Positions 1 through 25,219 of a DNA stretch of 29,717 nucleotides are shown piece after piece. The notes under the pieces are model-generated. The model ran no database searches. It had not been told where the DNA came from and saw only the letters and a list, made by a program, of their open reading frames with translations. The position numbers and the translations under genes are program-made. Source of the DNA: a virus. The stretch spans positions 1 to 29,717 of the IMG/VR virus record IMGVR_UViG_3300035698_005196, one strand, 5' to 3'. Position 1 is the first letter of the stretch. Each line of letters opens with the position of its first letter.

Positions 1-1394
1 ATCAAGACGTTGGTTGTTGTCTCACCAGCTTTGTATACAACCTTCACCATCCGGTTGCCATTAGGAACCCTCTTATCAAGGAATGTGATTCTACCTGAAC
101 TGTCCCAATCAATTGAACTTAAAGGGATCTCTTCACTTACAACTGAATCATTGTCAAGGGCTGCATACCTCATCGTGGGAGCTGTTGAATAATCGGCAGT
201 AGTACAGACGGCCTTAATGAAATACATACTATCTGAACTGTTTACTGTAGTCTTTTCCCAGGCATCCAAATAGTCCCAGGTAAGCCTACCTCCTGCAGTG
301 AAATCATCAGCACCGGATGTCTGAGCTGTTGGAGTAAAAGCCACCCAAGTTGTTCCGTTGTAATAATACCAAGTCACATCAGTTGTACCTGTATCAACGC
401 CAATGGTTGCAAGCCTGGTTGTCATACCAAAGAATCTACTACTGACACCAAAGTATATCTCATCATCATTTGCTGGAGTTGTAGCAAAGACATTAAAAGC
501 AGTCCCCTCAAGTGAGTTAGCTTCAACAGTGTTATCTGAATATGTACCACCGTCACTTGAATACACAGCATCATAGGTTGCATTCTTTCTAAGGAAGTAC
601 ACATAGTTCACTTCAGTTATGTTGCCTGGAAGCTGAAGCTCATCGTTCTCATCCCAATCACGGGCATAAGGTTCATCAGTTGTTGGATAGATAAAGCTTC
701 TACGAGTATCAAAGTAACCTACTGCAGCAGCAGGTGTATCCCAGACCCTTCCGGTCATACGTTCAACCTCCTCATCCATCCGTGGAAGTAATGTGGCAAG
801 CTCAGTATCTGTGATCTGTGCTGAATAAACATACTTAACGTATAGAATGTTTGAAGCAAGAGCAGTCAGACCGGCAGTTGTCAATACAATCCTACCTGCA
901 TCTTTGTCAAGTGTGTAATGGGTTGTCTCTGTTAGATCAGTGAAGTCAGTACTTCCACTGGCTGCATAAGATACCGTATAACTTCCAGCTATGACCTTTT
1001 GATTATCTAATGTAAAATACTTATTGGTAGTATCACCTGTGCCAACATTCTCATCAATGACATCTATCCCAAGACCGGCAGTGCGAACAACGGTTAAGGT
1101 GTCTGCATAATATGATCCAGTAGTAGTTGTAGCTGTAGTCGATTCAACCCACCGAATTGTGAGAACATCTGCATCATTTATTGGCAGATTGATTGTCAGA
1201 GTTGTCCCACTCATCGAGTAATCATAACTTGCACCTTGGATAAAATCTGTTCGGTTTGAATTGACCTCAACAGAACTTCCCTGTAGACTTGAACCGCTTG
1301 TGACAGGAATTGTATAAGTCCTTCCAGTATCACCGCTTGAACCGCCTAATGCACTGCCCAGTATGATTGTGTTTCTTATTGCGCTTATTGTCAT
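1..1394 (-). CDS. Partial tail/adaptor-like structural protein (first 464 residues)
   Basis: The reading frame is open from an ATG at 1394 to the window edge, so the C-terminus is missing. A good ribosome site (AAAGGAG) precedes the ATG. I checked every codon and found no stop. The first 200 residues are Thr/Ser/Gly-rich beta-type sequence. Around residues 180-210 a segment (ITDTELATLLPRMDEEVER) resembles the helix of gp6-like head-tail adaptors, with acidic residues followed by ERMTGR. Around residues 300-390 aromatic, Thr-rich sequence (WYYYNGTTWVAF, then LTWDYLDAWEKTTVN and a YFIKAVCTTADYSTAPTM tail) resembles repeats in phage baseplate-associated proteins. There is no signal peptide. It follows the 1803-aa lyase-like gene by 13 nt and is probably its operon partner. 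A virion role is inferred from composition and position; the exact family is unknown. Confidence 0.75.
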   Translation of the reverse strand, partial: MTISAIRNTIILGSALGGSSGDTGRTYTIPVTSGSSLQGSSVEVNSNRTDFIQGASYDYSMSGTTLTINLPINDADVLTIRWVESTTATTTTGSYYADTLTVVRTAGLGIDVIDENVGTGDTTNKYFTLDNQKVIAGSYTVSYAASGSTDFTDLTETTHYTLDKDAGRIVLTTAGLTALASNILYVKYVYSAQITDTELATLLPRMDEEVERMTGRVWDTPAAAVGYFDTRRSFIYPTTDEPYARDWDENDELQLPGNITEVNYVYFLRKNATYDAVYSSDGGTYSDNTVEANSLEGTAFNVFATTPANDDEIYFGVSSRFFGMTTRLATIGVDTGTTDVTWYYYNGTTWVAFTPTAQTSGADDFTAGGRLTWDYLDAWEKTTVNSSDSMYFIKAVCTTADYSTAPTMRYAALDNDSVVSEEIPLSSIDWDSSGRITFLDKRVPNGNRMVKVVYKAGETTTNVL

Positions 1395-1407: not shown

Positions 1408-4400
1408 TTAACCTGTTATAATACCTTTGTAATTCTCACCGAATGTTAGGATATGTCCATTAGAGGGTGCGCCCCTATTGGCAAAAGTGATTGTGTTATT
1501 GAAAAATGTTGTACCGGCACTGATAAATGTAATGTTTCCTGTACCAATGTCACAGGCAGTAGAGATACTACAATTATCAGTTCCGTCAAACTCCCAGTTA
1601 GTATCTGTATTCGGACAATCACAAGGACTACCACCAAGAGCACCGATAGTAATGTTTAGAATACTTGTTGAGTTCTTGATTGATGAATCTGTTGCCAGTG
1701 TTACGTTAGCAAAGAAACTGTATGTGTTTCCTTCACTACCGGTTGCATTAACTCTCCAATAGAATCTAACCTTTGCACCGTCTTGGATAGTGAATGATGT
1801 ATTTGCGTTTGTATCATTTGTGCAAAATGGTGTAGCATCGCATGATTGAATAAGTCCACTCTTCGGGTAAACACAGGTTTCATTGGTGACATTATATCTA
1901 ACATAAGTTACATTAGCTGCACCGCAATCATTAGCATCATACTCAGTAAGGTTGCTTGATTGATTATAATAGTCCGTTGATAAACAAGTAAGGTTTCTCC
2001 ATTCAGTCCATGATGTATTTGTGATGTTTGGAGTACAACCGACGGCAGTAACAGGTTTGAAATCTGATTTATTGATATCACTTACTTCTGTTGCATTGAG
2101 AGCATAGCCAGAATATACTCTAAAGAAACCAATCGTACCATTAACCCAAGCACCACCATCTCTTGTTGCAACTCTTATTCTGGTAATAGTAGTATTTGAA
2201 TCCTGATTACATCCACCACTATCTGCAACCACTGAACCGTTTATATAAAATACTATTGTATCTGCGGGATTATCGAACACAACACAAATGTGTCTCTCTT
2301 TATTGAAACTGAAGGTGCCTGTCGTTGAGACATCACCGCAACCATTGGCTTGTAATGAATACTTACCATCTGTCTCTTGTTTTAAAGACCATCTGCTATT
2401 AAAACTCCAACCAAAATATACCTCTGCAGGGGGTGTTTCTGATTGATTAACTACAGCACAAATACTGACACTCTCAGTCAGACCATATTGGATCCCTGTC
2501 ACATCTGTTGTTTGTGAATAATCATTTGTGCCATCATAAACAGACCTCCATCCGTTAGTGAAGTTGCCGAAGTATGCACCATCTTTCAAGGTCAGATTAT
2601 TTAAGTATGGTCCAGCCAAATCATAACCGATAGTGCCTGAAGTCTCATTGAACGGAAAGAACATACTCAGATTCTTGCCCATATCGGATGCTGGATCAAG
2701 ACTGACATTCACAACACAAGGGCCATTATGACAAGTGACATCTACACTATATGTATAGTTCTCATGCTGTGAATGGTTCCCATTAGCATAAGGTGTCACC
2801 CAATCAATGCCAAGCGTTGTAACTCCTGCTACCGCATCAGCGATTGTATAGTAATCTCCATTCTGACCGGTTGTAACATCGAAGGTCACATTATTCAGAC
2901 TCTCCTTCACAATAGATACAGCAGTCACACCATTCTTTAGGACACTATGATTATCTGTCCCTATATCTGTTGTGTTTACAATGATCCGGACAGTCCTGGG
3001 TTCATCAATATAGTCTGCACGTTCCCAAGTATTTGCAGTCAGTACCATCTCTGTAGCACTCCTCGTGATGAACATAGAAATTGAATCATTTGCTTGGGTT
3101 ATGTTGTAAGTACCGACATCTATAAAAGTTGCATTGAAAGCTCCAGCCTCAGTAGCACCTTTATATGCTAAGGCCCAACCATCAGTTTCAAGCGCACCAT
3201 CAACTGCCTTACCATCCTCATTCCAATCAAAGATAACTTTGTGAGTACCGTTGAATTGAACACCACTATCATTGGCTGCATTAGATACATAGACAATAGC
3301 TTTCTGTTCACCGTCTAAGTACCAGTGATGGGTATGCAATACATCATTTTCTCCCTGGGTCCCATTATAGAATAAAACCCGTGAATAATTCTTCCCAGGA
3401 TTATCGTTTTTTGTTTTGGCAAAACTGATAGCTATATTAGTTTCCCCACCAGATATGTTCAACCCATACTGTGAGTAATGAAGCTCGGTGATCATATTCC
3501 TACCACTGTTGTTCTGTGTGAAATTTGTATCATTCAAGGTAAGCCCAAATTCATTATAAACCCAAATAAAGTTATGGAAGAATTTTGTCTCATTTGATGC
3601 GTTCACGGAGGATCGCTTGACAACCATATCATTATACTTAACAAAGTATTCCTTAACATCACTTGTATTCTCCTGTGGTCTCCAGACAAATACACCACCA
3701 AACTCAGCATCAGCAGTACCAAATGGATTCTCTAAGTCACCACCGTACATCATAGGGAACCTCCTATAATCTGGATAGTCTGTTGAGAAACTTGCAGAAG
3801 CACAATCACTCATCCCATAGTATTGACTCTTTGGGGCATTTCCACAAGTTGCAGAGTATTCACCATTAAGCCCTTCATCTGTCTGAGTCATGTCCCTGAA
3901 AGAAATACCATTCTTCCAGGTATCAGCTGCAACATCATTATCAAATGGGACCTGGACTTCATCAATAAACGGTTCACCAAGTGCATATAACATATATCCC
4001 TGAGCCTGTGAATGTCCACCACCTCTTTCTTCTCCACCATCAACGTGCAACAAAGTATCATTCCGGTAACTGTAATTGTCCCTCATCATAAAAATATCAT
4101 TAGCATTGTCAAATGCAATCAACGAAATGTTACTCTCTTCTGGAGACTTCTTACTTGTAATTTCCAGTTCTAATTGTGAATAGAGATACAAGTCAGGAGG
4201 TGGCCACTTGCAATCACCAGTGGCTTTATATAAGTCCCTTAGCCACATTAATGTTTCTTTGATATTCTTGTCATTACATAGGAGAGCATCATAAAGCATG
4301 ACATCGCACTCAATAAGATTATAGTCAGATATGTCTTGGTAACTGTTTGTATCTCCCCTGCTAATATATCTTTGATGGTTAGGTTCATCCCTTCGATAAG

Positions 4401-6819
4401 TAGAACCAAGATAAGTATGATCAAGCTGCTGAGTGATAATTTCTCTACCCCACGCACAGTACATATTTTGATAGTCATTGATATCATCCCTTAGATTATA
4501 TCGTTTCATAAGCCAAGCGTTCTCCATAAGGTGATTTTGTGAATAGGACTTGTATAACCAACCCTCCTGATAATTAGCCCACGAATCATTCTTATATGCT
4601 CTGTAGTAAGAAATCTCACGGTCCATCCATTCCTTTGCAATGTTTGGTGAATCATACTTATCAATAGCGTGTAAAAGCAAACTGGGATTATCTGCACTTG
4701 CACCTAATAGCATATAACAGAAGCCACCCATACCTGATCCAAAACCTTTACCATTGTCACCACTGATAGTATCATCAGTATCATCATAAGGTCTGGTATT
4801 TACAAGCTGAGTAATACCCTGGCATATAGCCTCAAAATCTCTACTGTAATTGATAGCTTGTGCTTGTGTCAAATTAGGAAACATATAATCAAATGTCAGA
4901 CCTACATGGAATAATTCATGGATAGTTTGTACATTTGTATAGGTAGAGGCAGCTATTCCACTCCATCCGTCTAAATGATTGTAGGCTCTATCACACATAG
5001 TTTTACCAGGATAATTGGACCATCCATTGATTACACAAGCTATTGCATTCTCACGCCCTTTCTTTCCCCTTGGGTCTACATCATCAGCATCCCATCCAGC
5101 GTTAAAATCATCAGCTTCTTTTACCCTCAGCTGTGTATAAGTTGCATAAGGTACGGGATTACTTGTATTTGTAAAAAACTGTTCATAGGTTCCAAAGAAT
5201 TGAGTCCTATTCCATAAGCCCCACGGTCTTGCTAAATAAGGCACATACACAGTCTCATTATTGTTATCCTCATCACTCTCAGTATTGTTTTTACCAATAT
5301 CAACTCTAAAAGTACAATCGTGAAATCCACTTCTGGGATCCGCCCAATGACAGGTAAAGATTGTATCAGCATAACTATCTGTTTGATTTGTTCCATTGCA
5401 GATCTGTGTGACTGACCCATTAAGAGAACAATCAAAGGACCAGTTATAAAGATTTGAATTGTTAGTCCCGAAGTTCTGGATAGTGAATGTTACGTTGAAC
5501 ACATTTAATTTATAGAAGCTGTTGTTCCGGTCACTCCAATTTATAGGAAGTGAATATGTTACGTTGTGCAAGAACAGATCAATCTCTGGTGGTGTACCAA
5601 GCCTTTGCTTATCCCATAGATCATATACATAGCTGTTGTTAAGTGGCGTTCCATTCCAGATCAGAAGCTCATCAATATATCCTTCCATGTTAATTGAACT
5701 AAATTGACCATACCCTATTGTTATCAATTCACCAATCGTATAGTTGAGATTCCCATAAGGAGTACTTGAATTGGCTTGGAGTGTACCATCCACCCATACT
5801 GTCACATTCTTCTCATCATATTGATAACAGTTGTATGACCAATAACCAGCAGTACTCCTCTCACCATAATCATCTGTTGCTTTTCCAGTTGCAGCATCCC
5901 ATTCAACATGGACACTGTATTGATTCTCCGTAAGCCATTTAATGTTTTGTCCTGTACCCATAGCGAATAAACTCTGTGAATTGCTACCTGGTTGTGTAGT
6001 ATACTTCTGCCACAAACAAATGGCCATACCATTATTTAAAGAAGCATTCAAAGCTGAAGATATTTTATCGGTACTATCTTTTGTGAAGTTGAAGCAACCA
6101 TACCATTTACAGAAGGATTTATTCACCCATGTAGCACCATCAACAGCAGTGAATATATGTCTTCTGTTACCGGTACTGTTTAGCCAAGTTGATTCCACAT
6201 CACCAGTTAGATTAATTATCAGCATCGAAGAAGGTTCTGGATCATACATTCTTACACTATAAGTCACACTACTAACTAAAGGCCGATACTTAATAAAAAT
6301 CTTTGGAGCAACGGTCTTATAGGTCTTAACCTTTTGATAGTAAGCACCGTCCTGCCATTCAATAACCATGTTGTGCCCAAACCCAAACGGACTTGTTATG
6401 TCTTGAGACTCACCATCATAGGTGATCTTGCTATATTGAAACGAGAGTATCTTACCTTCACAGTTATAACAGGAATGGATTTCAGAAAGTGGAATAAACC
6501 TTAAATCTGGAGTCCTACTATCAAACGTCATGTACGTGATCTGGGTGATGTTATCCTTATAATGAACAACCCTTTCCCAGGTTATCATTGGACCATCAAT
6601 AGTATAATTGATCGTTCTATTCTTAGCCCTCATCTTCTTAGAACCATCCCAAAGGATAACTCTCTCTTCAGCAGCTAAGACATACCCTCCATCTTCTGCC
6701 ACAGAGAATCCAGTATAAGTAGGTTTGAAATCAATACGGAGTGATCCAGGTAATAACAAATAGATACTACTGCTAAGAATAACAAGAATTAAAACTCCAA
6801 TCTTTATTCGGTGGGCCAT
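1408..6819 (-). CDS. Membrane-anchored 1803-aa polysaccharide-lyase-like protein with LamG domains
   Basis: I chose the ATG at 6819 (MAHRIKIGVLILVIL) because it lies 1 nt after the upstream stop and opens with Lys/Arg plus a hydrophobic helix (about residues 5-24). The 38 codons upstream overlap the previous gene. Domains in order: beta-rich N-terminus; a LamG/concanavalin-like sandwich (about 240-410, with VWVDG and a DELLIWN-type end); a CARDB-like beta domain (about 410-525); an alpha-helical toroid followed by a beta region (about 530-1150) resembling heparinase II/III or alginate lyases, with the signature-like GGGHSQAQGYMLYALGEPF around His936; further beta domains; a second LamG (about 1385-1585); a Cys-rich beta C-terminus. 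N-X-S/T sequons are very dense, as expected for an exported archaeal glycoprotein. It probably cleaves an acidic host-surface polysaccharide. The lyase call rests on pattern memory and its substrate is unknown. Confidence 0.7.
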   Translation of the reverse strand: MAHRIKIGVLILVILSSSIYLLLPGSLRIDFKPTYTGFSVAEDGGYVLAAEERVILWDGSKKMRAKNRTINYTIDGPMITWERVVHYKDNITQITYMTFDSRTPDLRFIPLSEIHSCYNCEGKILSFQYSKITYDGESQDITSPFGFGHNMVIEWQDGAYYQKVKTYKTVAPKIFIKYRPLVSSVTYSVRMYDPEPSSMLIINLTGDVESTWLNSTGNRRHIFTAVDGATWVNKSFCKWYGCFNFTKDSTDKISSALNASLNNGMAICLWQKYTTQPGSNSQSLFAMGTGQNIKWLTENQYSVHVEWDAATGKATDDYGERSTAGYWSYNCYQYDEKNVTVWVDGTLQANSSTPYGNLNYTIGELITIGYGQFSSINMEGYIDELLIWNGTPLNNSYVYDLWDKQRLGTPPEIDLFLHNVTYSLPINWSDRNNSFYKLNVFNVTFTIQNFGTNNSNLYNWSFDCSLNGSVTQICNGTNQTDSYADTIFTCHWADPRSGFHDCTFRVDIGKNNTESDEDNNNETVYVPYLARPWGLWNRTQFFGTYEQFFTNTSNPVPYATYTQLRVKEADDFNAGWDADDVDPRGKKGRENAIACVINGWSNYPGKTMCDRAYNHLDGWSGIAASTYTNVQTIHELFHVGLTFDYMFPNLTQAQAINYSRDFEAICQGITQLVNTRPYDDTDDTISGDNGKGFGSGMGGFCYMLLGASADNPSLLLHAIDKYDSPNIAKEWMDREISYYRAYKNDSWANYQEGWLYKSYSQNHLMENAWLMKRYNLRDDINDYQNMYCAWGREIITQQLDHTYLGSTYRRDEPNHQRYISRGDTNSYQDISDYNLIECDVMLYDALLCNDKNIKETLMWLRDLYKATGDCKWPPPDLYLYSQLELEITSKKSPEESNISLIAFDNANDIFMMRDNYSYRNDTLLHVDGGEERGGGHSQAQGYMLYALGEPFIDEVQVPFDNDVAADTWKNGISFRDMTQTDEGLNGEYSATCGNAPKSQYYGMSDCASASFSTDYPDYRRFPMMYGGDLENPFGTADAEFGGVFVWRPQENTSDVKEYFVKYNDMVVKRSSVNASNETKFFHNFIWVYNEFGLTLNDTNFTQNNSGRNMITELHYSQYGLNISGGETNIAISFAKTKNDNPGKNYSRVLFYNGTQGENDVLHTHHWYLDGEQKAIVYVSNAANDSGVQFNGTHKVIFDWNEDGKAVDGALETDGWALAYKGATEAGAFNATFIDVGTYNITQANDSISMFITRSATEMVLTANTWERADYIDEPRTVRIIVNTTDIGTDNHSVLKNGVTAVSIVKESLNNVTFDVTTGQNGDYYTIADAVAGVTTLGIDWVTPYANGNHSQHENYTYSVDVTCHNGPCVVNVSLDPASDMGKNLSMFFPFNETSGTIGYDLAGPYLNNLTLKDGAYFGNFTNGWRSVYDGTNDYSQTTDVTGIQYGLTESVSICAVVNQSETPPAEVYFGWSFNSRWSLKQETDGKYSLQANGCGDVSTTGTFSFNKERHICVVFDNPADTIVFYINGSVVADSGGCNQDSNTTITRIRVATRDGGAWVNGTIGFFRVYSGYALNATEVSDINKSDFKPVTAVGCTPNITNTSWTEWRNLTCLSTDYYNQSSNLTEYDANDCGAANVTYVRYNVTNETCVYPKSGLIQSCDATPFCTNDTNANTSFTIQDGAKVRFYWRVNATGSEGNTYSFFANVTLATDSSIKNSTSILNITIGALGGSPCDCPNTDTNWEFDGTDNCSISTACDIGTGNITFISAGTTFFNNTITFANRGAPSNGHILTFGENYKGIITG

Positions 6820-6820
6820 C

Positions 6821-8518
6821 TTAACACCCCGAACCTTCAACTCCACCGTTAGGCCACCCTCTGCATGAGGCATTACCCCAAGAGGAACAATCAGCATTAT
6901 AACATATTGTGCCATTGCCAACAGAATCATCAATCTTTAGTGCTGCTGCAGTCGTACTATCTTGCCGAATTACCAAAGCTACCTGGTCGTCACCTGTATG
7001 ATCTTGCCAAATACTTACAATAGGGATTGCAGTAAAAGATAGGTCCAGATTCCTATAAAATTCATTTGAGCCAGTTCTTTCTGAAGCATTGTTCGGATCT
7101 ACAGATAGACGAACCATACCATTATTGCTTGCCCCATACCTTGTCCTTAGAGCTGTTGCACCTTTGCCTGTAACTATATCCATTCCAAAGTTTGTTTCGG
7201 CCATACCTTCAGCATCAATATAAACAGCAGTACCATTACCGTCATAATCCATTAAGAATCCAGTACCAGTGGAGGTTGCATTACTTATTGCGAAATATAC
7301 AAATGATTCAGTTCCGGTTCCTATAAAAGATTTATCAGTTCTAATGTCAATAGCATTAGATTCTACTGAATCTGTTTGACCCTTAATCAAATCACCACTA
7401 CCATTGTAATGATAAATTCTCAATGCGTGAGAAGCACCGAATTGATTTATCTGGATACCATAACTTGTTCCATCTTGTTGAATCTTTAAGGCCGGTTGGT
7501 CGTCACCTGAAGAATCCTGTTCGATGAATACAAGTGGTCCAGCAGTGATACCACTTTGAATATTTCGATAGAACCAATTTGCACCATTAGCATTTGTACT
7601 TTCAGTTTTGATATAGAAATCTTCTGATTCATTAGCAAAGATGGCGAGTGGTCCTGCACCTTTTTGTGCCCTTACTTTAAGCCCATACTTAGTAGAAGAA
7701 GTTGCAGCTGAATCAATTATCATACCCATTACATCCCCATTATTATCTATGTCAAGTGCGTTTCCTGTACCGTCATTGTAGATACTGAGGACGTCTTGGT
7801 CGTCACCAGAGTTATCTTGTTTGATAGCCATAGTAGGTCCATTGGTCGTTGCTGAAGTCATATCCCTATAAACATACAATAAACCGTCAGCAGTTGAATT
7901 GTGTGATACTTTAACATAATTTTCTGCATCTGTACCTAACCAAGCAGGATGGCCACCCATGCCGGTAGTTACTCTAAGACCATAACTGCTATTTGCTTCT
8001 GAATCAATATCAACAGCAACAGCATCACCATTCTGGTCAATAAATAAACCAGTACCTACACCATCATTTCTAATCTCCAATACTTCTTCATCATAAGTTG
8101 CATTAGAAGCAAGTAATTTCATCATAGATGAAACTGCAGATACTCCTGCTGAGGTCTCAACATGAATAGCATGATTGATTGAATCTGTAACAATATCTAA
8201 GACTCTACCTAAGCCTGATGTTTTAATTAGTTGTAAATTGATAGCAGTTGTGATTTGTGTTATATCCATACGAGCAGCAGAGATATAATCACTTGCAGTA
8301 AGATTTGTTACTGATAGAGTATCAACAGAAAAGGAACCACCAACAGTTAGGTCCCCGGTAACATTAGAAGTATTACATTCGAGATAATCAACACTGGTGA
8401 TATTCCATAAGTCCCTATAATCAGTATTTCCATAAGGCACGTTTTCAATTGAAGAAGCAAGTGTACTCATCAGTACAAGAATCACTATTGCTATGATGAT
8501 TGATATGGTTCTTTTCAT
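6821..8518 (-). CDS. Secreted fibre-like repeat protein (565 aa)
   Basis: Residues 1-22 form a clear signal peptide (MKRT, a run of Ile/Val/Leu, then LASS). Next comes a segment typical of tail fibres and archaeal surface proteins (SNVTGDLTVGGSFSVDTLSV, about 51-70). The body is a repeat array: the motif QDxxGDDQ appears at about residues 234, 334 and 505, each after a YRN/YRD ... GP or IP stretch and followed by a DGT or IRQD beta unit. Four cysteines sit in the last 27 residues (539, 544, 552, 565) and may form disulfides. The ATG at 8518 follows the previous stop by 2 nt and no good ribosome site is visible, so translation is probably coupled. It overlaps nothing and runs straight into the lyase-like gene. 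A receptor-binding or surface-fibre role is inferred; export is predicted from the signal peptide. Confidence 0.8.
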   Translation of the reverse strand: MKRTISIIIAIVILVLMSTLASSIENVPYGNTDYRDLWNITSVDYLECNTSNVTGDLTVGGSFSVDTLSVTNLTASDYISAARMDITQITTAINLQLIKTSGLGRVLDIVTDSINHAIHVETSAGVSAVSSMMKLLASNATYDEEVLEIRNDGVGTGLFIDQNGDAVAVDIDSEANSSYGLRVTTGMGGHPAWLGTDAENYVKVSHNSTADGLLYVYRDMTSATTNGPTMAIKQDNSGDDQDVLSIYNDGTGNALDIDNNGDVMGMIIDSAATSSTKYGLKVRAQKGAGPLAIFANESEDFYIKTESTNANGANWFYRNIQSGITAGPLVFIEQDSSGDDQPALKIQQDGTSYGIQINQFGASHALRIYHYNGSGDLIKGQTDSVESNAIDIRTDKSFIGTGTESFVYFAISNATSTGTGFLMDYDGNGTAVYIDAEGMAETNFGMDIVTGKGATALRTRYGASNNGMVRLSVDPNNASERTGSNEFYRNLDLSFTAIPIVSIWQDHTGDDQVALVIRQDSTTAAALKIDDSVGNGTICYNADCSSWGNASCRGWPNGGVEGSGC

Positions 8519-11119: not shown

Positions 11120-12175
11120 CTACTTGATACCATAGATTTGCGAACTGGAAGCCTCGAAGGTCATTACCAAAGCAAGGTACTCCTTAAGCAAATATGGGTA
11201 GTTATCATTGTCGTTAAACTTCTCTTCATAGGTTACATCTTGAAGAACAGCCATGAAGACATATCTCATATCCAACATCAAGATTCTCCTTGAAGCTGAT
11301 GTGGTTGGCATATACCTATCCTTGATGAAATCAACTCCATCAAAGCTGAACGATCCAGGGATACCAAACGGCAAACCTTCAGCAGGTGGTGCTGGTTGTC
11401 TCTGGATGTCAAGAAGCAAACCTTTGATGTAGTTGTGTGTGCTTGCGTCTGTAACTGCCAGTGTAACCATTCCATTTGCATTGAAGGTTGTTGCAAGTTC
11501 AGCCCTGATATCTGATAATGTAACATAGGCATCACTCTTATTGGTAGTGTTGGTTGTGATAGACTTAATCATCCCATTGAACTCTTCAATGTTAGTAGCC
11601 TGATCTCCGTTGATGATAGCATCTTCTTCAGCTTCCTTGATAGACTTAACCTTAACTCTTAGATCAAGACTCTCAGGGTCAATGAATCCACGCATACCTG
11701 CCATTGCTGGTCCAGTGATTCTGCCTTTAGCATAAAGATATCGCATAGGAACAGAGGTTCTGTCGTATGTATCAATCTGGTCTGCAATTGCAGCATCTTC
11801 AAGTGCCCATGCAGCTCCGCCCTTTGCTGTCAGAGGGATGTAATCATAGGTCAATCCTCTAACTGCTCTTCGTGGTAGCAAGTCAGTCAATGGTGTCAAT
11901 CTGTCCGTTCTGTCAACAACAGCAGAATCAACGTATACAGGGATAAGTGCTGTACCTGCAGTACCAGCTCCACCGGTCTGAGTTGTTATGCTCGACTTTT
12001 GGATACTGTCTTTGATCTCAAGTCTCTTGTCAACTTTGTTCCAAGGGTTGTAATATTCCTTAGATGATCCGCTAAACTCATCACGCCCTACAGCCAGCTC
12101 TCCGAATGTCTTGTCAAAGAGATTCTCTGCTTCTGATCTGTCAATTGCAACTTGTCCAAATCCTTTTGTATTCAT
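11120..12175 (-). CDS. Major capsid protein, HK97 fold
   Basis: I place the start at the ATG at 12175, which has AGGATGTGAT upstream. A GTG at 12184 overlapping the protease stop as GTGA is the alternative and adds three residues. The 351-aa protein has the length and layout of HK97-type capsid proteins: a helical, charged N-arm (about 1-60), a TTQTGGAGTAGTALIPVYVD entry into the core, a conserved basic stretch LPRRAVRGLTYDYIPLTAKG, a long helix (SLDLRVKVKSIKEAEEDAII followed by NGD), an A-domain, and a beta-strand C-terminus with FEASSSQIYGIK. It follows the protease/scaffold gene directly, the classic order. The N-arm may be removed by the protease during maturation, as in HK97; no separate scaffold gene is visible. 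Confidence 0.92.
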   Translation of the reverse strand: MNTKGFGQVAIDRSEAENLFDKTFGELAVGRDEFSGSSKEYYNPWNKVDKRLEIKDSIQKSSITTQTGGAGTAGTALIPVYVDSAVVDRTDRLTPLTDLLPRRAVRGLTYDYIPLTAKGGAAWALEDAAIADQIDTYDRTSVPMRYLYAKGRITGPAMAGMRGFIDPESLDLRVKVKSIKEAEEDAIINGDQATNIEEFNGMIKSITTNTTNKSDAYVTLSDIRAELATTFNANGMVTLAVTDASTHNYIKGLLLDIQRQPAPPAEGLPFGIPGSFSFDGVDFIKDRYMPTTSASRRILMLDMRYVFMAVLQDVTYEEKFNDNDNYPYLLKEYLALVMTFEASSSQIYGIK

Positions 12176-12180
12176 TTGAA

Positions 12181-13062
12181 TCACATCCTAATTATCGGCA
12201 ATCCTTTCTTGATTCTTGCCTTTTCTTCTTCTTTGGGGTCAGGTTCATCATGCTTTGCTTTGTGTACTGTTTTAAGTTCAACCATTTCTTTCTCAAGATT
12301 TTGGTACTTCATTGTCATTGTATCCAAAGCTTTCTTCTCCTCAGAATCAACAGGGGGTGTTGGTTCCACTGGAGGTGTTGGTTCAGTTGCTGGTTCAGGA
12401 TCCTTTTCAGGTTCTGGATCAGCAGCTTTTTCTTCCATCTCTTTCCTTAGAGCATCAAATTTCTCGTCAACAGACTTCATGATCTCTTCGGTGTTTGACT
12501 TCAGAATATCCGTAATTTCTTTTTCTTCCATAGTCTTCTGTGCCTCCACAGTTTCTTTAATTGGGTCTTCAGGACTACCTATTAATCCCAGACTTTTTGC
12601 AATCCTCATGGCGGTTGAATTCTTATTGGCACCAATGCCAACCCAACTTGCTTCAAAAATCTCGCCTTTGGTATATCTCTTTTTAGTAGAATTTCCGATT
12701 GTGACTTCATCATAGCTCGTAGGTAAAGCACCAATGCTTAGGTCTAATTCTGCGCCCTCGCCAAGCATTCCCTGGATTACCTTAGAATTTGGGTTGCTCT
12801 TGAAAAACTTAGGCTCTGCAATAAGCGCATTGTGCCCATCAACCTTCATGACCTTCTGATTTATCCAATCACCAATTCTGTTTAAGGCTTTATTCTCATG
12901 ATCAATCATCATCCGGATTCGATCTCTACGTTTAATTGAATCTTCAAAGAATGACTTTCCAACCATTTCATCTTCCCGATCAACACTATCATCTGAAAGG
13001 ACACAAGAATATTTACCTGCAGAATTCTTAAATATCGTTCCGTGCATTAAGATTTTATCCAT
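12181..13062 (-). CDS. Prohead serine protease fused to scaffold-like region
   Basis: The 293-aa protein has an N-terminal HK97-type prohead protease domain (about 1-165). The expected catalytic His is in MMIDHENK (His55) and the Ser in LDLSIGALP (Ser109); SDDSVDREDEMV is the usual substrate-loop region. Residues 170-293 contain a coiled coil (EITDILKSNTEEIMKSVDEK), a Pro/Glu/Thr linker with repeated PTPPV units and another charged helix, which fits a scaffolding extension. The start at 13062 is ATG with no ribosome site. A TTTAAATA box is centred 29 nt upstream, so the mRNA is probably leaderless. The next gene is the capsid protein. The protease would cleave scaffold and capsid N-arm inside the prohead. 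Confidence 0.9.
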   Translation of the reverse strand: MDKILMHGTIFKNSAGKYSCVLSDDSVDREDEMVGKSFFEDSIKRRDRIRMMIDHENKALNRIGDWINQKVMKVDGHNALIAEPKFFKSNPNSKVIQGMLGEGAELDLSIGALPTSYDEVTIGNSTKKRYTKGEIFEASWVGIGANKNSTAMRIAKSLGLIGSPEDPIKETVEAQKTMEEKEITDILKSNTEEIMKSVDEKFDALRKEMEEKAADPEPEKDPEPATEPTPPVEPTPPVDSEEKKALDTMTMKYQNLEKEMVELKTVHKAKHDEPDPKEEEKARIKKGLPIIRM

Positions 13063-13085: not shown

Positions 13086-13109
13086 ACTATTTAAACACAA
13101 TTATGATTT
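13086..13109 (-). promoter_or_regulatory. TATA promoter for protease/capsid operon
   Basis: The minus strand carries TTTAAATA at 13095-13088, centred 29 nt before the protease ATG, giving a start of transcription at or next to the ATG. The 24-bp block 13086-13109 matches the portal promoter block (19973-19996) at 23 of 24 positions. It includes the stop codon and last codons of the upstream MuF-like gene. Confidence 0.75.
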
Positions 13110-14201
13110 CTTGCCAAGTACAGCTTTCAGAACGCATCTGCAATTCGGATGAGCCGGTGGATGCATGAAGTACTTTCCTGTGCCAGGATCCTGAAAAGGC
13201 TCATCAAGTCCTCTAACCTGACCGTTCAATCTCTTGTCAATATCACCGGTTCTTTGGTCTATATGTGTCTTCCACTGCTTACCTTTGACAATATTGCTCT
13301 TCTTATAAGATATGATCTTGCTCTGATTAACAAACCGGTTTGATTCAGTCCTGGCAATCATGACAGCTTGGCCTTCCTTAGCCTGGGTGAATACTTCCTG
13401 CACATCCTTAGTGAGTTCCGGTAATGTCTTTTTATCCTTCATACCCTCCTGAACTCTGAGAAGTATCTTTGTCTGTAATTGTTTGGTTGCGCCCTTGATC
13501 CCGTGCCATCTCTTACCGTGGATATTGTAACCATTGAGTTGTTGGTCCTCAAATATCTTGGCCTGCCTGGTATGTTCAACAGTGAACCCTATGTCCATTT
13601 TCAATTCATCTTCAACAGACTCAACGCCATCCTTCATGACATCGGTGATCAGTATCCGAATCTTACTTAGGAAAGGTCCGGTGTTAATCGTATTCATCAA
13701 TACATTAAGGAACTCACCAAAAGTCTTGGTTGTATATTCAAGGCTCTTGTTTAAATCAACCTTATGCAGATCCCTCAACACTCTCTTTTCCCAAGCCGTT
13801 ATGACATTCTTGAAGAAGCTTTCATAATCCTCAGACTGTTCAACTACATCTTCACCAGGGTTGATAATATCGCTTTCCTTTGTGATAGGTTTTTCAATGT
13901 CAATATCAAAGTGTTCAAACTCAGGCTCTTCAATGATAGTCTCAGGGACTAAGACAACACACTGCTGACAATATGAGTTCCGGAAATCATTGCAGGCTTC
14001 AACAATATCATTGGTATAATCAGCGAACTCAAGAATGTCTGTCTTCAATACAATAGCAAAGTACTTCCAACCCTCATAGTTCTTCATGTAGAAGATAAAC
14101 CTGTCAGTCTCCTCAGAGTAATGAATAGTCGGGGTCTTGCGTGTGGACTCTTTGTGCCACTTGTACAATCTTTGCATTACATCAAATTTAATTTGAAGCA
14201 T
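13101..14201 (-). CDS. MuF/SPP1 gp7-like head morphogenesis protein (366 aa)
   Basis: I chose the ATG at 14201 (MLQIKFDVMQRLYKWHKE) because of a strong AAGGAG site; 45 further codons upstream overlap another gene. The C-terminal domain (about 235-366) has the Phage_Mu_F pattern: a helical pair, ARTESNRFVNQ (about 283), W-K-T-x-x-D-x-R-T-G with LNGQ (about 310-327), and the HPPAHPNCRC end (about 347-356). This minor capsid family sits inside the head next to the portal and is needed for assembly. The N-terminal half is an unfamiliar extension with a CQQC motif (about 106-109). Its stop codon is inside the conserved promoter block of the protease operon. Unusually, it is separated from the portal by four other genes. 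Confidence 0.88.
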   Translation of the reverse strand: MLQIKFDVMQRLYKWHKESTRKTPTIHYSEETDRFIFYMKNYEGWKYFAIVLKTDILEFADYTNDIVEACNDFRNSYCQQCVVLVPETIIEEPEFEHFDIDIEKPITKESDIINPGEDVVEQSEDYESFFKNVITAWEKRVLRDLHKVDLNKSLEYTTKTFGEFLNVLMNTINTGPFLSKIRILITDVMKDGVESVEDELKMDIGFTVEHTRQAKIFEDQQLNGYNIHGKRWHGIKGATKQLQTKILLRVQEGMKDKKTLPELTKDVQEVFTQAKEGQAVMIARTESNRFVNQSKIISYKKSNIVKGKQWKTHIDQRTGDIDKRLNGQVRGLDEPFQDPGTGKYFMHPPAHPNCRCVLKAVLGKKS

Positions 14202-14493
14202 CGTATCTCTCCTTAACTTTACATCCATTAGGTGAACATAAGTATTGCTTTGCTTTTGTTTCGGCTGGTGGAACAGAATCATTGATGATTGCATCCCAAC
14301 CGCACACAGAGTATTTCTTGCCCTTAGTTGTATCACTGTGAGGATAACAAGTAAGACCTGTACTGCTTAACCTTTCACAATGTTTTGTTATATTAAGACA
14401 TGATGAATAATGTGTATCCTCTGGTAGTATCGTGATCCCAATACCAATTAATGCAACTAATAAAACTCCCAGGGTTATTTCTATCTTAGTCAT
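14188..14493 (-). CDS. Small membrane-anchored Cys-rich protein (101 aa)
   Basis: The ATG at 14493 overlaps the end of the upstream fibre gene by 8 nt, with no strong ribosome site. Residues 1-23 (MTKIEITLGVLLVALIGIGI) form an uncleaved anchor or signal. The outside part, about 78 residues, has six cysteines (near 32, 39, 49, 64, 85, 91) in a spacing that could form three disulfides, plus NIT and NDS sequons. The end (SPNGCKVKERYDASN) overlaps the MuF gene by 14 nt. Together with the two genes before it, it forms an exported group inside the head operon. No family is recognised. It could tether or chaperone the neighbouring fibre at the cell surface; that is speculation. Confidence 0.75.
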   Translation of the reverse strand: MTKIEITLGVLLVALIGIGITILPEDTHYSSCLNITKHCERLSSTGLTCYPHSDTTKGKKYSVCGWDAIINDSVPPAETKAKQYLCSPNGCKVKERYDASN

Positions 14494-17400
14494 GTTCTTT
14501 TGTTATAAAGCCATAGGCTACGAAAGGTGTTGTTGCATAAGTTCCGTGACTATCAATTGTAACATCTACATCACTTGCAATATATTGCATATTGAGTTCA
14601 TCTCCTGCTTCTAATTCTCCATACCAAGTATGGTCTAACCAACTCTGTCTATTTTGTTTAGAAGGGTCAAATTCCTTATATGTTCCTGCTATTTCAACTC
14701 CTTTATTTGCAACCCTTATAGCTACATGAGAAGTTGGGGATGGAGAGGAATCAGCAGATGAAACACCAAAATTAATTAAATAGTCACCATCTTCTCCGAT
14801 CATGACAGTATTATTATATAAAAAAGAGATATTTTCAACTTCACCTAAACTACTATTGAAAGTTAGATTATACCAAGTATCTATTACTGCAACTGTGTGA
14901 ACTTCTGTAGCCAATCCGTACATATGGGGGACTTCATTATAAAAACTTCCTGTTACATTCATACTCCCTTTGACATTAAGGAGTCCGGTTCCTAATTCAA
15001 TAACTCCGTTGGTCTGGTCATGTGTCAATGATATCCATTCAGTATTGTTGGTATCTGGGTCTGTTGCTGAATGAACATATAAAGTTGGGTTTGTTTGTGG
15101 AACATGGTCATAATCAGTGTGTAGATTTACAGCCCCTATTATGAACTGACTACCAGCATACGGAGTTACCATTAATCCAGATTGGTCATAAGTATCACTT
15201 GCATAAAATTGTGCTGCAACATTAGCATCGGGTGCATAAAAAGTGAAATCTGTACCTTTCATATTTATCGAACTGCCCCACATCTCCAGGGAATCGTCAA
15301 AATAAGCTGTACCATCAACTTCTAATTTTCCAGAAATTAATAAATCGTCTGGGCTATGTACCCAATGTGTACGGGTAGCTGTTGCATCACCTATCTGTAA
15401 ATAATGGTCTACTTGAGTATCAATTATTGTTTTTGGGATACCACCTGCCGAATTATGGGAAATTGTAACTAAATTCAACCTGGCAGCATCAATATCTCCA
15501 GCAATGGTAGCGTTACCTGTTACATTAAGTGTACTCATAAGTTCATAAGATGTACAAGTAACAGAGTCATTTAATTGGGTTATAGCAGAGTAAGTTGGAC
15601 AGGCAGAGGGATAGTTCTGGTTGTCAGTCCAGTTCTGTGAACCACTGAATTCTGTTGCAATAATATTACCAGAGGCCCATATACTTGTACCATTGAGAGT
15701 CCTATTAACTTGCAACGGATATACTGGATTAGCATTGATCCCAACATAACCATTTTTATCAATCCTCATAGCTTCCCCTACATCCTTGACAAGAAAAGCG
15801 AGTTCATAATTTGGTATTGATGTTCCAATCTCAAATACACGATCTAATGCAGGTGTTGGTGCAGGTGTTGGTGCAGTAATATTATCCCAAGCATAAGTCA
15901 AGTTAGTAAAGATAGGTGTTGAATTTTGTGATGCACTATTAAGTGTTGCTCTTGCTTGAATGAACCTACTATCCCCAGAAGTTATATTACAAAGTGTATG
16001 AGCTGGGTCAAGAGTGCAAGCTTGCCATGAACTTATATCTATGATTTCATCTTGTGAGAGTGTTCGATTATATAATGAAACATAAGCTATATCACCACCA
16101 AACTCATTTCCATGAACAGCCCTCCCAATTACAATAGCTGTAGTTGGAGCTTGTAAAGCATTTCCAACAATACTTGTATTTGCTATCAAATTGCCATTTT
16201 TATAAAATAGTATATTTGCTCCATCATAAGTCCCAGTAAATTGATACCACTTGGTCCCATCATAAGAGGTAGCTAAAACATCATCATAAGCCCTATACCA
16301 AGTATCACCTTGGTTATAGATTTGCATAGCATATTTTCCAGCAACATTTTCTCTTTGTAACATATAACAACCATTTTTCCCGACTATTACAGCATAATTA
16401 GTTTGTGCTGAATTTGGTTTAACCCATGTGCTTAAAGTAATATTATCAGTAATATTGAACATTAAATCAGCGCCAGTTGTTATATAATCATCACTACCAT
16501 CAAAATAAGATATATTTTCACCTTCAAATACAGTATCAGTATCAATTCCACCACATATAACCCCCCCTCCAGCAGTACCATCGTTTCCATGATTTGAATA
16601 ATCCGAACAATTACCAGTTTCATTCAAAGGCCAGAACCCAATAAGGTCTGTATCACTTATATTAGGTTTGCTCATATTGATTTCTCTTGTCTGAAATGTG
16701 ACATTAGTAGAACCTGGTTCAGATATTGAGACATTCAAAGTATCCCAATCTACAGTATCTCCAGCATCATATATTGCTGATGTATAATTGCCTTGATGGT
16801 TGTATAATCCTTTGGCATAGAGTGCTGTAAGTTCTGCTGGAGATAAAGAACGGTTATATATTATTAATTCGTCCATTAATCCGTTAAAATAACTTGCAGT
16901 TATTTCAGCACCAATATAATTTTTTAATGGGCTGGATGATGGTTTACTTGCTGAATTATATGAACCTATTGATATTCCATTATTATAGAATACTCCTCCA
17001 GTTCCATTAAAGGTAATTACTATATGTGTCCATTCATTCATAGTAATCCCTGTATCAGAAAAATGAGAAGTACTACCAACAAAGAATCGTAATTTATTTG
17101 TTGGGTCATCATTAAGTCTAAGCATATATCCATCATCTCCTCCATAAAAAAAATTATTCATAAAAATCACTCTTTTGGTAGAAGAACCACTTGCATTAAC
17201 CCAAACAGACCATGTAAAATTCAGATTATATAAATCTAAACTTGTATCTGTTCCAACATTAATAACATCATTAGTTCCATCAAAATCATAATGTTCATGT
17301 ATATGGGTTGCACCGCTAACAGTACCATCATTTCCATACCCCGAACTATCACTGGCATTATCAGTAAACTGCCACCATCCAACTATTGAAGCATCAGCAT

Positions 17401-17551
17401 CAGCATGAGTATTACTTAGTTCAACAGTTACATCAGTTGAAGTATTAGAATTACTACCATATTGAAAATCCGTAATCACGAAAGTGTTTGAAGTAACCGA
17501 TGTAGCCATCATCAAAGACATCAATATCAAAATATAAAATATAGCCTTCAT
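14486..17551 (-). CDS. Secreted LamG-domain fibre protein (1021 aa)
   Basis: The start is the ATG at 17551 (MKAIFYILILMSLMMATSVT), overlapping the upstream stop as ATGA and preceded by GGGGTGA. Residues 1-21 are a signal peptide. Domains: LamG-like sandwich 1 (about 55-250, WWQFTDNASDSSGYGNDGT to MDELIIYNRSLSPAEL); LamG-like 2 (about 303-508, FWPLNETGNCSDYSNHGNDG to IAYVSLYNRTLSQDEI); Pro/Thr/Ala linker (about 558-568); a fibre region (571-890) with AMRIDKNGYVGI ... PLQV and STLNVTGNATIAGD, motifs seen at tail-fibre attachment regions; and a C-terminal beta sandwich (about 890-1021) that resembles a trimeric jelly roll. I count more than thirty N-X-S/T sequons. It probably binds glycans or a partner cell. 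It is unusual to find it between portal and MuF genes. Confidence 0.85.
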   Translation of the reverse strand: MKAIFYILILMSLMMATSVTSNTFVITDFQYGSNSNTSTDVTVELSNTHADADASIVGWWQFTDNASDSSGYGNDGTVSGATHIHEHYDFDGTNDVINVGTDTSLDLYNLNFTWSVWVNASGSSTKRVIFMNNFFYGGDDGYMLRLNDDPTNKLRFFVGSTSHFSDTGITMNEWTHIVITFNGTGGVFYNNGISIGSYNSASKPSSSPLKNYIGAEITASYFNGLMDELIIYNRSLSPAELTALYAKGLYNHQGNYTSAIYDAGDTVDWDTLNVSISEPGSTNVTFQTREINMSKPNISDTDLIGFWPLNETGNCSDYSNHGNDGTAGGGVICGGIDTDTVFEGENISYFDGSDDYITTGADLMFNITDNITLSTWVKPNSAQTNYAVIVGKNGCYMLQRENVAGKYAMQIYNQGDTWYRAYDDVLATSYDGTKWYQFTGTYDGANILFYKNGNLIANTSIVGNALQAPTTAIVIGRAVHGNEFGGDIAYVSLYNRTLSQDEIIDISSWQACTLDPAHTLCNITSGDSRFIQARATLNSASQNSTPIFTNLTYAWDNITAPTPAPTPALDRVFEIGTSIPNYELAFLVKDVGEAMRIDKNGYVGINANPVYPLQVNRTLNGTSIWASGNIIATEFSGSQNWTDNQNYPSACPTYSAITQLNDSVTCTSYELMSTLNVTGNATIAGDIDAARLNLVTISHNSAGGIPKTIIDTQVDHYLQIGDATATRTHWVHSPDDLLISGKLEVDGTAYFDDSLEMWGSSINMKGTDFTFYAPDANVAAQFYASDTYDQSGLMVTPYAGSQFIIGAVNLHTDYDHVPQTNPTLYVHSATDPDTNNTEWISLTHDQTNGVIELGTGLLNVKGSMNVTGSFYNEVPHMYGLATEVHTVAVIDTWYNLTFNSSLGEVENISFLYNNTVMIGEDGDYLINFGVSSADSSPSPTSHVAIRVANKGVEIAGTYKEFDPSKQNRQSWLDHTWYGELEAGDELNMQYIASDVDVTIDSHGTYATTPFVAYGFITKEHD

Positions 17552-18231
17552 GTGCAATTCACCCCGATATATCCAAACTCTAAGTAAATGCAACCTCCCA
17601 AGGTCACATTCCCTGATACATTTAAACTTGAGGTTATTATTTCGCCAGTAGTAGTGATATTAAAGTTGCCGGTGAATCCATCAGAATCAAACGTAAATCC
17701 ATTACTGCCTACTGTTGCCTGACAACCCGATTGAAACTGACAAGTTGCAGTAGACATATCACTGCAGTTTACGGCCACTCCAAGGCAATCACCATCCCAC
17801 CAATCAATGAAACATCCTTGCTGCCCATCCCAGGGTGTAAATCCACAAGCCATCAAATTATAATCAAATGCTGAACAGTTTACAGCCTTACCGGTACAGC
17901 TTGTATTCCCATGAACAATTAACTGCTCCATCACCTCAATGTTTGGTGCTGTTACATTCCCATTAAAAAATCCTTCTCCGTGGAAGTGTGTATCATTTCC
18001 ATCACTATGTAAAGAGGGAGAATCTAATCTGTCATTAACCTGTAACCAATCAACACTGATATTATCGGCAATCAAAGTTTCGCCTGAGAAGTTACCGCTT
18101 CTTAGCCATTGAGTCTTATAGGTCCAGGGATTGTTTGTGATGTCAAGCTTGATTGGTGATATATAATCTGTTGCTGAAATAATCCCAACTAATAGAATAA
18201 CCACAATTAACAAAATTATCCATTTCCTCAT
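17548..18231 (-). CDS. Secreted protein with tandem four-cysteine repeats (227 aa)
   Basis: I prefer the ATG at 18231 (MRKWIILLIVVILLVGIISA), which gives a typical signal peptide. An in-frame ATG four codons earlier overlaps the upstream gene. Residues 100-175 contain two copies of a Cys module, CxGxAVNCS followed by a Cys and a GC: C112/C119/C129/C140 and C149/C156/C164/C170. The C-terminus (SSLNVSGNVTLGGCIYLEFG) is the same kind of short beta segment found in the 565-aa and 1021-aa fibre proteins. Several N-X-S/T sequons are present. It ends by an ATGA overlap with the 1021-aa fibre gene, implying coupled translation. Probably an exported partner or base of the fibre; no defined family. Confidence 0.8.
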   Translation of the reverse strand: MRKWIILLIVVILLVGIISATDYISPIKLDITNNPWTYKTQWLRSGNFSGETLIADNISVDWLQVNDRLDSPSLHSDGNDTHFHGEGFFNGNVTAPNIEVMEQLIVHGNTSCTGKAVNCSAFDYNLMACGFTPWDGQQGCFIDWWDGDCLGVAVNCSDMSTATCQFQSGCQATVGSNGFTFDSDGFTGNFNITTTGEIITSSLNVSGNVTLGGCIYLEFGYIGVNCT

Positions 18232-18235
18232 ATTA

Positions 18236-18460
18236 TTACCCATAGGTTAGTGTTGCCCTATCATCCCAAACATTATCAAAGTTTCTGTCTGAGTCTGCGT
18301 GTTCCAACACCATAACAGCACCAGTAATAGTCTGCCTGGTAATCAACCAACCGGCAGCACCTAATGCAGTACCAGGTTCTGCATAGCCGTTATATATCAC
18401 AGTACCTGCTGATGAATCTGTAATGTGTTTATACCAGGGCTTAACATTAGCAAGGCTCAT
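18236..18460 (-). CDS. Small phage structural protein (74 aa)
   Basis: The ATG at 18460 overlaps the portal stop as ATGA. The protein reads as a short beta-rich unit: WYKHITDSSAGTVIYNGYAE, PGT, GWLITRQTITGAV and a closing FDNVWDDRATLTYG. The pattern (Y-x-G-x-A-x-P-G-T ... W-x-I-x-R ... F-x-x-x-W-D-x-R-A ... Y) is familiar from small uncharacterised structural proteins in many tailed phages. No signal peptide. It is made with the portal and is probably a minor virion component; exact role unknown. Confidence 0.8.
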   Translation of the reverse strand: MSLANVKPWYKHITDSSAGTVIYNGYAEPGTALGAAGWLITRQTITGAVMVLEHADSDRNFDNVWDDRATLTYG

Positions 18461-19941
18461 TTTGCTACAAGGAACTTCTCAAACTTATTTCTATAAGTCT
18501 TTTCCTTTTCCTTGTCTTCCTTGGCCTTCTTTGGATCTTTCTCCTTATCACCAGGATTCCCTTGGTTACCAAACGAACCACCAGCAAAAGGGTCTTGACC
18601 AAACAACTCATCTGAACCTTGACCTGGAGTTTCACCCCACTCAACATCATCAAGACCTTTCAATCTTCGGTACTCATTGATAGTCATTGCACCAATAGTT
18701 ATCTCCTGTATCTGTTGATTGAATAGAGCAACCTCTGCCTGCTTATCTTCTGTAAAGAATTTGAACTTGACTTTGATATCCGGCTTCTGTAGGATCTCTG
18801 GAATGATATCATTATTGATTCTTCTTTCAAGCAAATCAAGGTAAGGCTTGATAGCATTCTTCATAGTGACTCGTTCCTGGCCTTCTTGTGTTGATCTGTT
18901 TACATCTTCAATAAAGCCTGCCTCTTCTGGACTTACACCATAGATCCCGAACACCAGATGATAATACCACTTCTGACCTTCAAGCCATTCCATATCTCTT
19001 AGGTTCTTCTGAAGGTGGACCAGGGAAGCATTGTCACCGTTCAAGAAGCCAAGCTTGTGAGCTTTGCCTTTAAAGTTCTTCTTCCAATCAGTAGCAGCCT
19101 TCTTCAGTGATTCATCGTTTGCATTCTTTAGGAATACTAATGCGTCTGGGATAAGGTTCTGTAGAAATATCTCTTTATTGAATCGTGTACTCTGGATCAT
19201 GACTTCAATTATCTGCTGGATGGATTGCAACGGTGCCCAACCATATACTGAGTCAGGTCTGCGGTTCATCATGAAGTATGATAACTCATCATTACCGAAC
19301 CAACGTGGAGCTGCCTTTGGATGCTTGAAACTGTATTGATAGTATCCATGGGATCTCTTGTAGATGTCTACATTCTTAAAGAACATACCACCATCCTGAT
19401 CAAAGATTTGCAATAGCTCCCTCTTGCCAAATGGTTTGAGAATCTTCTGCGGTACAGTCTGAATCAGATTACCAGCAAGATCTTTCATTTCAATAAAGCC
19501 ATCAACATAGGATGCTTCTGAATAAGCTTTAGTCATAACACCTGCATCAATCTCAAGAAGGTCAGTAACAATTGAAGAATTCAAGTCATTGATATTGTCA
19601 CCGTTCTGGTTCACTCTCCCTAAGAACTGATTGATCTTATCAACATCAGCAGCATAAAGAGCAATGTCTTCTTCCGACTCCTCATCTTCAAGAACTATCT
19701 TGTGTGGTGTTTTCTGCACAGCTTTCTTAATAGCCATGTTCACCATCTGGACCCATTCAGATTTAGCGAACTGTCTAAGTTCTGTTAGGTTGAAGTTTAC
19801 ACGGGGTTGCCCTAACCTGGCACTCAGGTACCATTGAGGATATACAGCCAACTTCTCTTCTTCCACGGCGACAGATTGAAGTTGTATATCTCTCTCAAGG
19901 AACAACGCTTTCAATGTAGCTAAGTTTTCAATGAATCCCAT
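18457..19941 (-). CDS. Portal protein (494 aa)
   Basis: The portal forms the dodecameric channel at the head vertex through which the terminase packs DNA. Evidence: size close to the HK97/PBSX-type family norm, position two genes after the terminase pair and before MuF, and family-like segments such as WVQMVNMAIKKAVQKTPHKI, a VPQKILKPFGK wing region, YGWAPLQSIQQIIEVMIQST, KEIFLQNLIPDALVFL, and the stem-like FGIYGVSPEEAGFIEDVNRS. MTINEYRRLKGLDDVEWG (about residue 425) is the usual late portal motif. The last 60 residues are Gly/Pro then Lys/Glu-rich. The ATG at 19941 lacks a ribosome site; the TATA box lies 37 nt upstream with a palindrome between them. Confidence 0.9.
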   Translation of the reverse strand: MGFIENLATLKALFLERDIQLQSVAVEEEKLAVYPQWYLSARLGQPRVNFNLTELRQFAKSEWVQMVNMAIKKAVQKTPHKIVLEDEESEEDIALYAADVDKINQFLGRVNQNGDNINDLNSSIVTDLLEIDAGVMTKAYSEASYVDGFIEMKDLAGNLIQTVPQKILKPFGKRELLQIFDQDGGMFFKNVDIYKRSHGYYQYSFKHPKAAPRWFGNDELSYFMMNRRPDSVYGWAPLQSIQQIIEVMIQSTRFNKEIFLQNLIPDALVFLKNANDESLKKAATDWKKNFKGKAHKLGFLNGDNASLVHLQKNLRDMEWLEGQKWYYHLVFGIYGVSPEEAGFIEDVNRSTQEGQERVTMKNAIKPYLDLLERRINNDIIPEILQKPDIKVKFKFFTEDKQAEVALFNQQIQEITIGAMTINEYRRLKGLDDVEWGETPGQGSDELFGQDPFAGGSFGNQGNPGDKEKDPKKAKEDKEKEKTYRNKFEKFLVAK

Positions 19942-25045: not shown

Positions 25046-25219
25046 TTATTTCTTAAGTTTCGCATAGACTTCGTTTAGCGTTTCTTCATAGAGGGCCAGT
25101 ATTTGGTCTTTCCTCAGTGTTCTAAGCTGGTTTATAATCCTCTCTGGTTCGTCACCAAACACAAAGTCCTCTGAACTTAAAGTCCTCAATCGTTCTTCTA
25201 CTTTATGATAATTCATCAT
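25046..25219 (-). CDS. Small charged helical protein (57 aa)
   Basis: The ATG at 25219 overlaps the upstream stop as ATGA, and GAGG lies just before it; a second ATG follows directly. The sequence starts MMNYHKVEERLRTLSSEDFV, then FGDEPERIINQLRTLRKDQI and a closing LALYEETLNEVYAKLKK. It looks like two or three amphipathic helices with no cysteine or membrane segment. It is the last gene of the accessory operon, just before the non-coding boundary. No family recognised. Confidence 0.65.
   Translation of the reverse strand: MMNYHKVEERLRTLSSEDFVFGDEPERIINQLRTLRKDQILALYEETLNEVYAKLKK

Follow-up and report, generated by a model that had tools for sequence, protein, structure and literature searches.

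Head and tail assembly in the known tailed viruses takes place in the cytoplasm and, to our knowledge, assembly of tailed viruses is taken to be wholly cytoplasmic; likewise, we know of no tailed-phage fibre or receptor-binding protein that carries a Sec signal or is assembled elsewhere. The phage lambda morons lom and bor encode surface proteins. Secreted proteins with signal peptides, termed SH-like proteins, have been described from archaeal head-tailed viruses, and the host envelope has been suggested as their site of action (PMC11576556). These are amyloid-like sheath mimics of 159-288 aa from viruses of Methanotrichales, Methanomicrobiales and Syntropharchaeia/ANME-1 (PMC11576556). No description of the viral clade considered here, or of exported tailed-virus fibres, was found in the open-access literature.

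Gene order, relatives and the portal-MuF junction

The window, i.e. the whole stretch of DNA analysed, is a 29,717-bp IMG/VR record classed as linear and with no host given. On its minus strand lie TerL, small genes, portal, a 74-aa protein, three proteins of 227, 1021 and 101 aa, MuF, protease and capsid protein, and the presence in this order of TerL, portal, MuF, prohead protease and an HK97-type capsid protein identifies a member of the Caudoviricetes with an HK97-type head. The portal protein (494 aa, 18457..19941) matched Pfam Phage_portal at 5e-23 and PHROG portal at 9.9e-32, the MuF-like head protein (366 aa, 13101..14201) Pfam Phage_Mu_F at 1e-16, the prohead protease (12181..13062) Pfam Peptidase_S78 at 2.8e-4 and the major capsid protein (11120..12184), which is at most 78% identical to its relatives, Pfam Phage_capsid at 1.2e-6. 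Between portal and MuF, the 74-aa ORF (18236..18460) has no export signal, occupies the position at which relatives have a q451-type gene and shows weak similarity to a 116-aa protein of locus L096 (1e-5). It is followed by the cassette of genes for the 227-aa (17548..18231), 1021-aa (14486..17551) and 101-aa (14188..14493) proteins.

Each gene from portal to MuF overlaps or abuts the next. Given that the 1021-aa gene starts at ATG 17551, with GGTGA upstream, and MuF at ATG 14201, preceded by the Shine-Dalgarno sequence AGGAG, the overlaps within the cassette and with MuF are 4, 8 and 14 nt. The gene order, overlaps and portal and MuF identities put forward in a sequence-only reading of this DNA were thus correct, as were its LamG folds in the case of the 1021-aa protein, which has two LamG stretches (8e-47), and its Cys repeats, two imperfect copies of which (CxGxAVNCSxxD...GC) are visible in the 227-aa protein. 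That the cassette consists of chance ORFs is ruled out by the overlaps, the Shine-Dalgarno sites and the existence of homologues.

Viral contigs scanned with the portal query yielded no relatives, and a scan with the fibre linker described below matched locus L002 alone. A linker-plus-repeat query, assembled from rows joined from separate proteins, gave no match in genome contigs and matched locus L078 in viral contigs. The L078 match led to a three-sequence capsid alignment, and it was this query that worked: 148 viral loci were recovered, of which 80 were kept, most with 57-78% capsid identity.

Portal and MuF form a single ORF in 26 of 52 typed loci, are adjacent in 3 and are separated by cargo in 23, and 11 changes between the fused and split arrangements were counted on the capsid tree; the nearest relative of the window, L080, has a fused portal-MuF. 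The junction is therefore a recurrent cargo site of the clade, which accounts for the location of the cassette. The cargo is mostly not exported. Exported cargo was found in three lineages, namely the window, L083, in which an exported 394-aa protein with the linker occupies the junction, and the distant L159, in which exported proteins of 658 and 901 aa and an anchored protein of 83 aa precede MuF (Pfam 8.5e-13). The search of related viral contigs that the earlier reading had proposed was thus successful, and an insertion confined to the window is ruled out by L083 and L159. In L081 (2994-5510), an 839-aa portal ORF contains what appears by eye to be an intein-like insertion (CYSDDTEVLTENGW ... 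VAIQGN).

A second exported block, passed over in the sequence-only reading, lies downstream, also on the minus strand. An exported repeat fibre of 565 aa (6821..8518) occupies the canonical slot of the clade, which runs from the capsid protein to an adaptor-like gene, p463 (3..1394), cut by the contig end. The p463 family is conserved across relatives and bounds this slot; its assignment as an adaptor is weak, being drawn from a comparably placed L002 gene with a SU10_adaptor match at E=0.13. The repeats of the 565-aa protein are common to L002 (5e-34) and to the non-exported fibre of L078 (3.8e-41). Next to it, an N-anchored protein of 1803 aa (1408..6819) contains LamG and 78 sequons (25.6 expected) and shares its N-terminal 200 aa with L127 (2e-48). 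Since these two proteins have the same export and sequon features as the cassette, the cassette belongs to a larger pattern. The idea of a single odd insertion therefore stood with regard to insertion and export and fell with regard to its being single, given the second block and the presence of the module in most typed relatives. Two early-region proteins of the window (122 and 164 aa; 25216-25584 and 26268-26762) also have N-terminal export or anchor segments, and neither had a database match.

Export signals and sequons

Export was called with a hydropathy measure of our own, the mean KD value of the N-terminal 12 residues. Values of 3.78, 2.61 and 2.82 were obtained for the 227-, 1021- and 101-aa proteins, respectively, as compared with 1.3 or less for all head and packaging hallmarks in the window, in agreement with the signals or anchors previously proposed for all three. 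The signals of the 227- and 1021-aa proteins terminate in a small-x-small site and have a cleavable appearance, and the N-terminus of the 101-aa protein looks like an uncleaved anchor. Given that ∼11% of plus-strand ORFs of the relatives (142 of 1270) reach a KD of 2.2, three such genes in succession would arise by chance with a probability of the order of 0.001.

Counts of N-X-S/T were compared with those from 2000 residue shuffles. The 227-aa protein has 10 sequons against 3.1 expected (p = 0.001) and the 1021-aa protein 33 against 15.6 (p = 0.0005, the floor of 2000 shuffles). Hence, the dense sequons ascribed to all three proteins were found in these two and not in the 101-aa protein, for which the excess was not significant (2 against 0.6; p = 0.13, 2000 shuffles). 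The hallmark proteins of the window showed no excess by the same test (p = 0.14-0.88, 2000 shuffles).

Similar behavior was observed across the clade. Of 26 loci that span the canonical slot, 15 encode exported proteins of 200 aa or more within it, and exported fibre-like proteins are present in the structural operon of 33 of the 44 typed loci represented as tree rows; the exported state changes 6 times on the tree, with at least 5 changes forced by well-supported branches. Pooled over 80 distinct exported ORFs, a set that takes in those of the window and a small number of short or early genes that pass the hydropathy threshold, 1491 sequons were counted against 720 expected (2.07x). The corresponding ratios were 0.97x for non-exported proteins, 1.08x for hallmarks and 1.03x for the reversed motif in exported proteins. 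A second hydrophobic segment is absent from 79 of the 80, and 78 have a small-x-small site after the hydrophobic core by a loose test. Since the excess is confined to exported proteins across the clade, their export and N-glycosylation are likely to be real. The more distant L002 encodes an exported fibre with no sequon excess (10 against 16.8). In partial loci of terminase relatives (L005-L077), no exported sequon-rich proteins were found by a detector of the same kind, though a stricter one that would have passed over L002 too, and the trait is therefore not general among related terminases. The opposite strand of L174 (11214-11777) encodes a 188-aa protein that has CDNSTWC-like repeats and 21 sequons (5.6 expected) and no export signal.

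Fibre architecture, the 101-aa family and the host

The mature N-termini of 25 canonical-slot fibres, a set to which the 1021-aa protein does not belong, could be aligned (TPxSDID.R..Y.IYN.TNIT), and their pairwise similarity drops toward the C-terminus; a conserved N-terminal and diversified C-terminal region, as in fibres, is thus a property of the canonical-slot proteins. The 1021-aa protein comprises a signal peptide, the two LamG stretches, a Cys-containing NWTDNQNYPSACP linker common to other proteins of related viruses and a C-terminal domain with close sequence relatives in exported proteins of L151 and L163. The linker motif (NWTDNQNYPxACP) is present in 14 ORFs belonging to the clade and L002. 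A structure model of the C-terminus resembled C1q domains with a TMt of about 0.7-0.8, with weaker matches to the spike knob of phi812 and to one chain of a cyanophage tail complex. The model has a pLDDT of ∼60-84, and the first 279 of its 421 residues are unreliable; with moderate confidence, then, the protein is predicted to end in a C1q/TNF-like head, a jelly-roll or comparable fold as in receptor-binding heads. Fibre proteins are expected to be cytoplasmic and to have no export signal. Given the export signals (hydropathy, sequons), the exported proteins were not filed as ordinary tail fibres. No homologue of the 227-aa protein was found in the loci of relatives.

Iterated HMM searches and alignment placed the 101-aa protein in a family, p101, of small N-anchored Cys proteins encoded downstream of exported fibre genes. 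In 34 of 50 cases, a hydrophobic segment is also present at the N-terminus of the protein encoded after an exported fibre, well above the plus-strand background given above. Among 371 genomes of the same phylum, two contigs of a Nanoarchaeota MAG carried p101 and a single further genome had a broken copy, and on the basis of this near-absence the family is virus-specific. A structure model of p101 (pLDDT 46) was left out of use owing to its low confidence. The broken copy (L190, genome G346) lies beside a fibre-like ORF and short toxin-like ORFs and is possibly part of a provirus remnant. Small proteins with TM and coiled-coil segments are encoded near the fibre slot in L083 (16832-17116), L002 (3300-3641) and L078 (9037-9333) and look like lysis (XhlA-like) proteins.

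In genome contigs, the capsid protein had four matches, in Woesearchaeota, Nanoarchaeota, an unclassified archaeon and a WOR-3 MAG; in the 371 same-phylum genomes it was found in just two, both found before. Given that these relatives, as binned into MAGs, are mostly DPANN, the host is probably a DPANN archaeon (Woesearchaeota, Nanoarchaeota). The WOR-3 assignment and the unusually large size of the Nanoarchaeota MAG (2.1 Mb) speak against this. The Nanoarchaeota MAG contig L163 carries a close match to the head domain and a p101 gene; its terminase ORF (4391-6364) contains, by eye, an intein-like insertion (CFPEHTNINTDRG ... ILVHNC). The viral contigs searched contained no host MCM genes. In L174, L175, L188 and L177, the usual tape-measure position holds an ORF of only ∼246-274 aa, which suggests very short tails if that ORF is the tape measure.

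Virion fibre or cell-surface protein

The cassette may be an exported, glycosylated receptor-binding fibre module of a tailed virus, inserted at the cargo site; this is our preferred reading, at a little under an even chance. Here, the 227- and 1021-aa proteins would leave the cytoplasm by way of their secretion signals, a step that the data support well, and outside the cell would acquire N-glycans and probably disulphide bonds, as the sequon excess and Cys pattern suggest. The 101-aa anchored protein may, to judge from gene neighbourhood, be their partner. With its LamG lectin-like domains followed by a predicted C1q/TNF-like head, the 1021-aa protein would belong to receptor-binding fibres that are made as secreted proteins, are retained close to the membrane through their anchored partner and might meet the virion at release. 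Extended to the clade as a whole, in which fibres would be made extracytoplasmically, with Sec export and N-glycosylation, held by a membrane protein specific to these viruses and attached to the virion only at release, the proposal is tentative. Given the cytoplasmic assembly of known tailed viruses, the way in which an exported fibre would reach the virion is put forward as a proposal.

It is somewhat less likely that the exported proteins remain on the infected cell and never enter the virion. They would then act as adhesins on its surface or as proteins that mask receptors, either preventing superinfection or drawing infected cells and new hosts together. Such a role is favoured by the N-anchored partners present in most clusters, and both p101 and the large 1803-aa protein, membrane-anchored by their look, fit retention on the cell, which counts against the fibre proposal; cytoplasmic virion assembly is, moreover, the rule. 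L144, which carries exported proteins alongside non-exported fibre-like genes after the tail hub, points the same way. By contrast, in L078, which the tree places within the exported relatives, the fibre slot is filled by homologous repeat and LamG proteins that show neither export signals nor sequon excess, such that exported proteins replace non-exported fibre-like ones there. Inspection of the unannotated ORFs after the tail hub revealed no further fibre-like gene in four exported-type contigs, and the conserved mature N-terminus with a variable C-terminus is the usual pattern of fibres. Both roles, display on the host and acquisition by the virion at the membrane, had been suggested in the sequence-only reading. 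On the basis of the fibre slot and fibre architecture, a virion role is slightly preferred over a cell-surface role.

It is improbable that the proteins are egress factors, i.e. proteins, secreted or anchored, and enzymes by which the S-layer or glycocalyx is disrupted for virion exit. The secreted proteins of archaeal head-tailed viruses provide a published precedent (PMC11576556), and one stretch of the 1803-aa protein resembles polysaccharide lyases by eye; however, Pfam detected no enzyme in this protein or in the three cassette proteins, and LamG and C1q-like heads on long variable shafts have the look of binding modules. That the hydrophobic N-termini belong to ordinary cytoplasmic virion proteins is very unlikely: the signal predictions are heuristic and the genes sit within a structural operon, but a twofold sequon excess limited to exported proteins, with the reversed motif null, would be difficult to account for if the proteins were not exported into a compartment with N-glycosylation.

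Should the virion reading of the fibre module be true, a tailed virus would possess an extracytoplasmic assembly step. The exported fibre-like group either breaks the rule of cytoplasmic assembly or represents tailed viruses that turn fibre parts into host-surface proteins, and on either reading the contact between DPANN viruses and their hosts becomes directly testable. The p101 family and the exported-fibre N-terminus are marker families with which similar viruses can be found.

Several known systems resemble the locus in part. Tailed-phage fibres with C1q/TNF-like knobs (phi812, cyanophage A4) share a conserved N-terminus, variable C-terminus, jelly-roll head and location in a structural operon, whereas the proteins of the window carry export signals. 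The lom and bor morons are likewise envelope proteins encoded inside a late region. Unlike them, the cassette genes overlap their neighbours, recur across the clade and occupy a fibre slot; a moron is an autonomous unit with its own promoter and terminator, against which the 4-14 nt overlaps argue. A LamG 'structural protein' of the Altiarchaeum virus Altivir_8 (BK059162) is 29% identical over 156 residues but, by the hydropathy measure used above, lacks an N-terminal export segment. The SH-like proteins of viruses of sheathed archaea (PMC11576556) are the nearest published case, with which the present proteins share a signal peptide, as judged here from hydropathy and cleavage-site heuristics. 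Fold and size differ: in place of a two-sheet amyloid fold of 150-350 aa, the 1021-aa protein has LamG and C1q-like domains, and the proteins described here combine LamG, linker and C1q-like modules in a sequon-rich fibre architecture.
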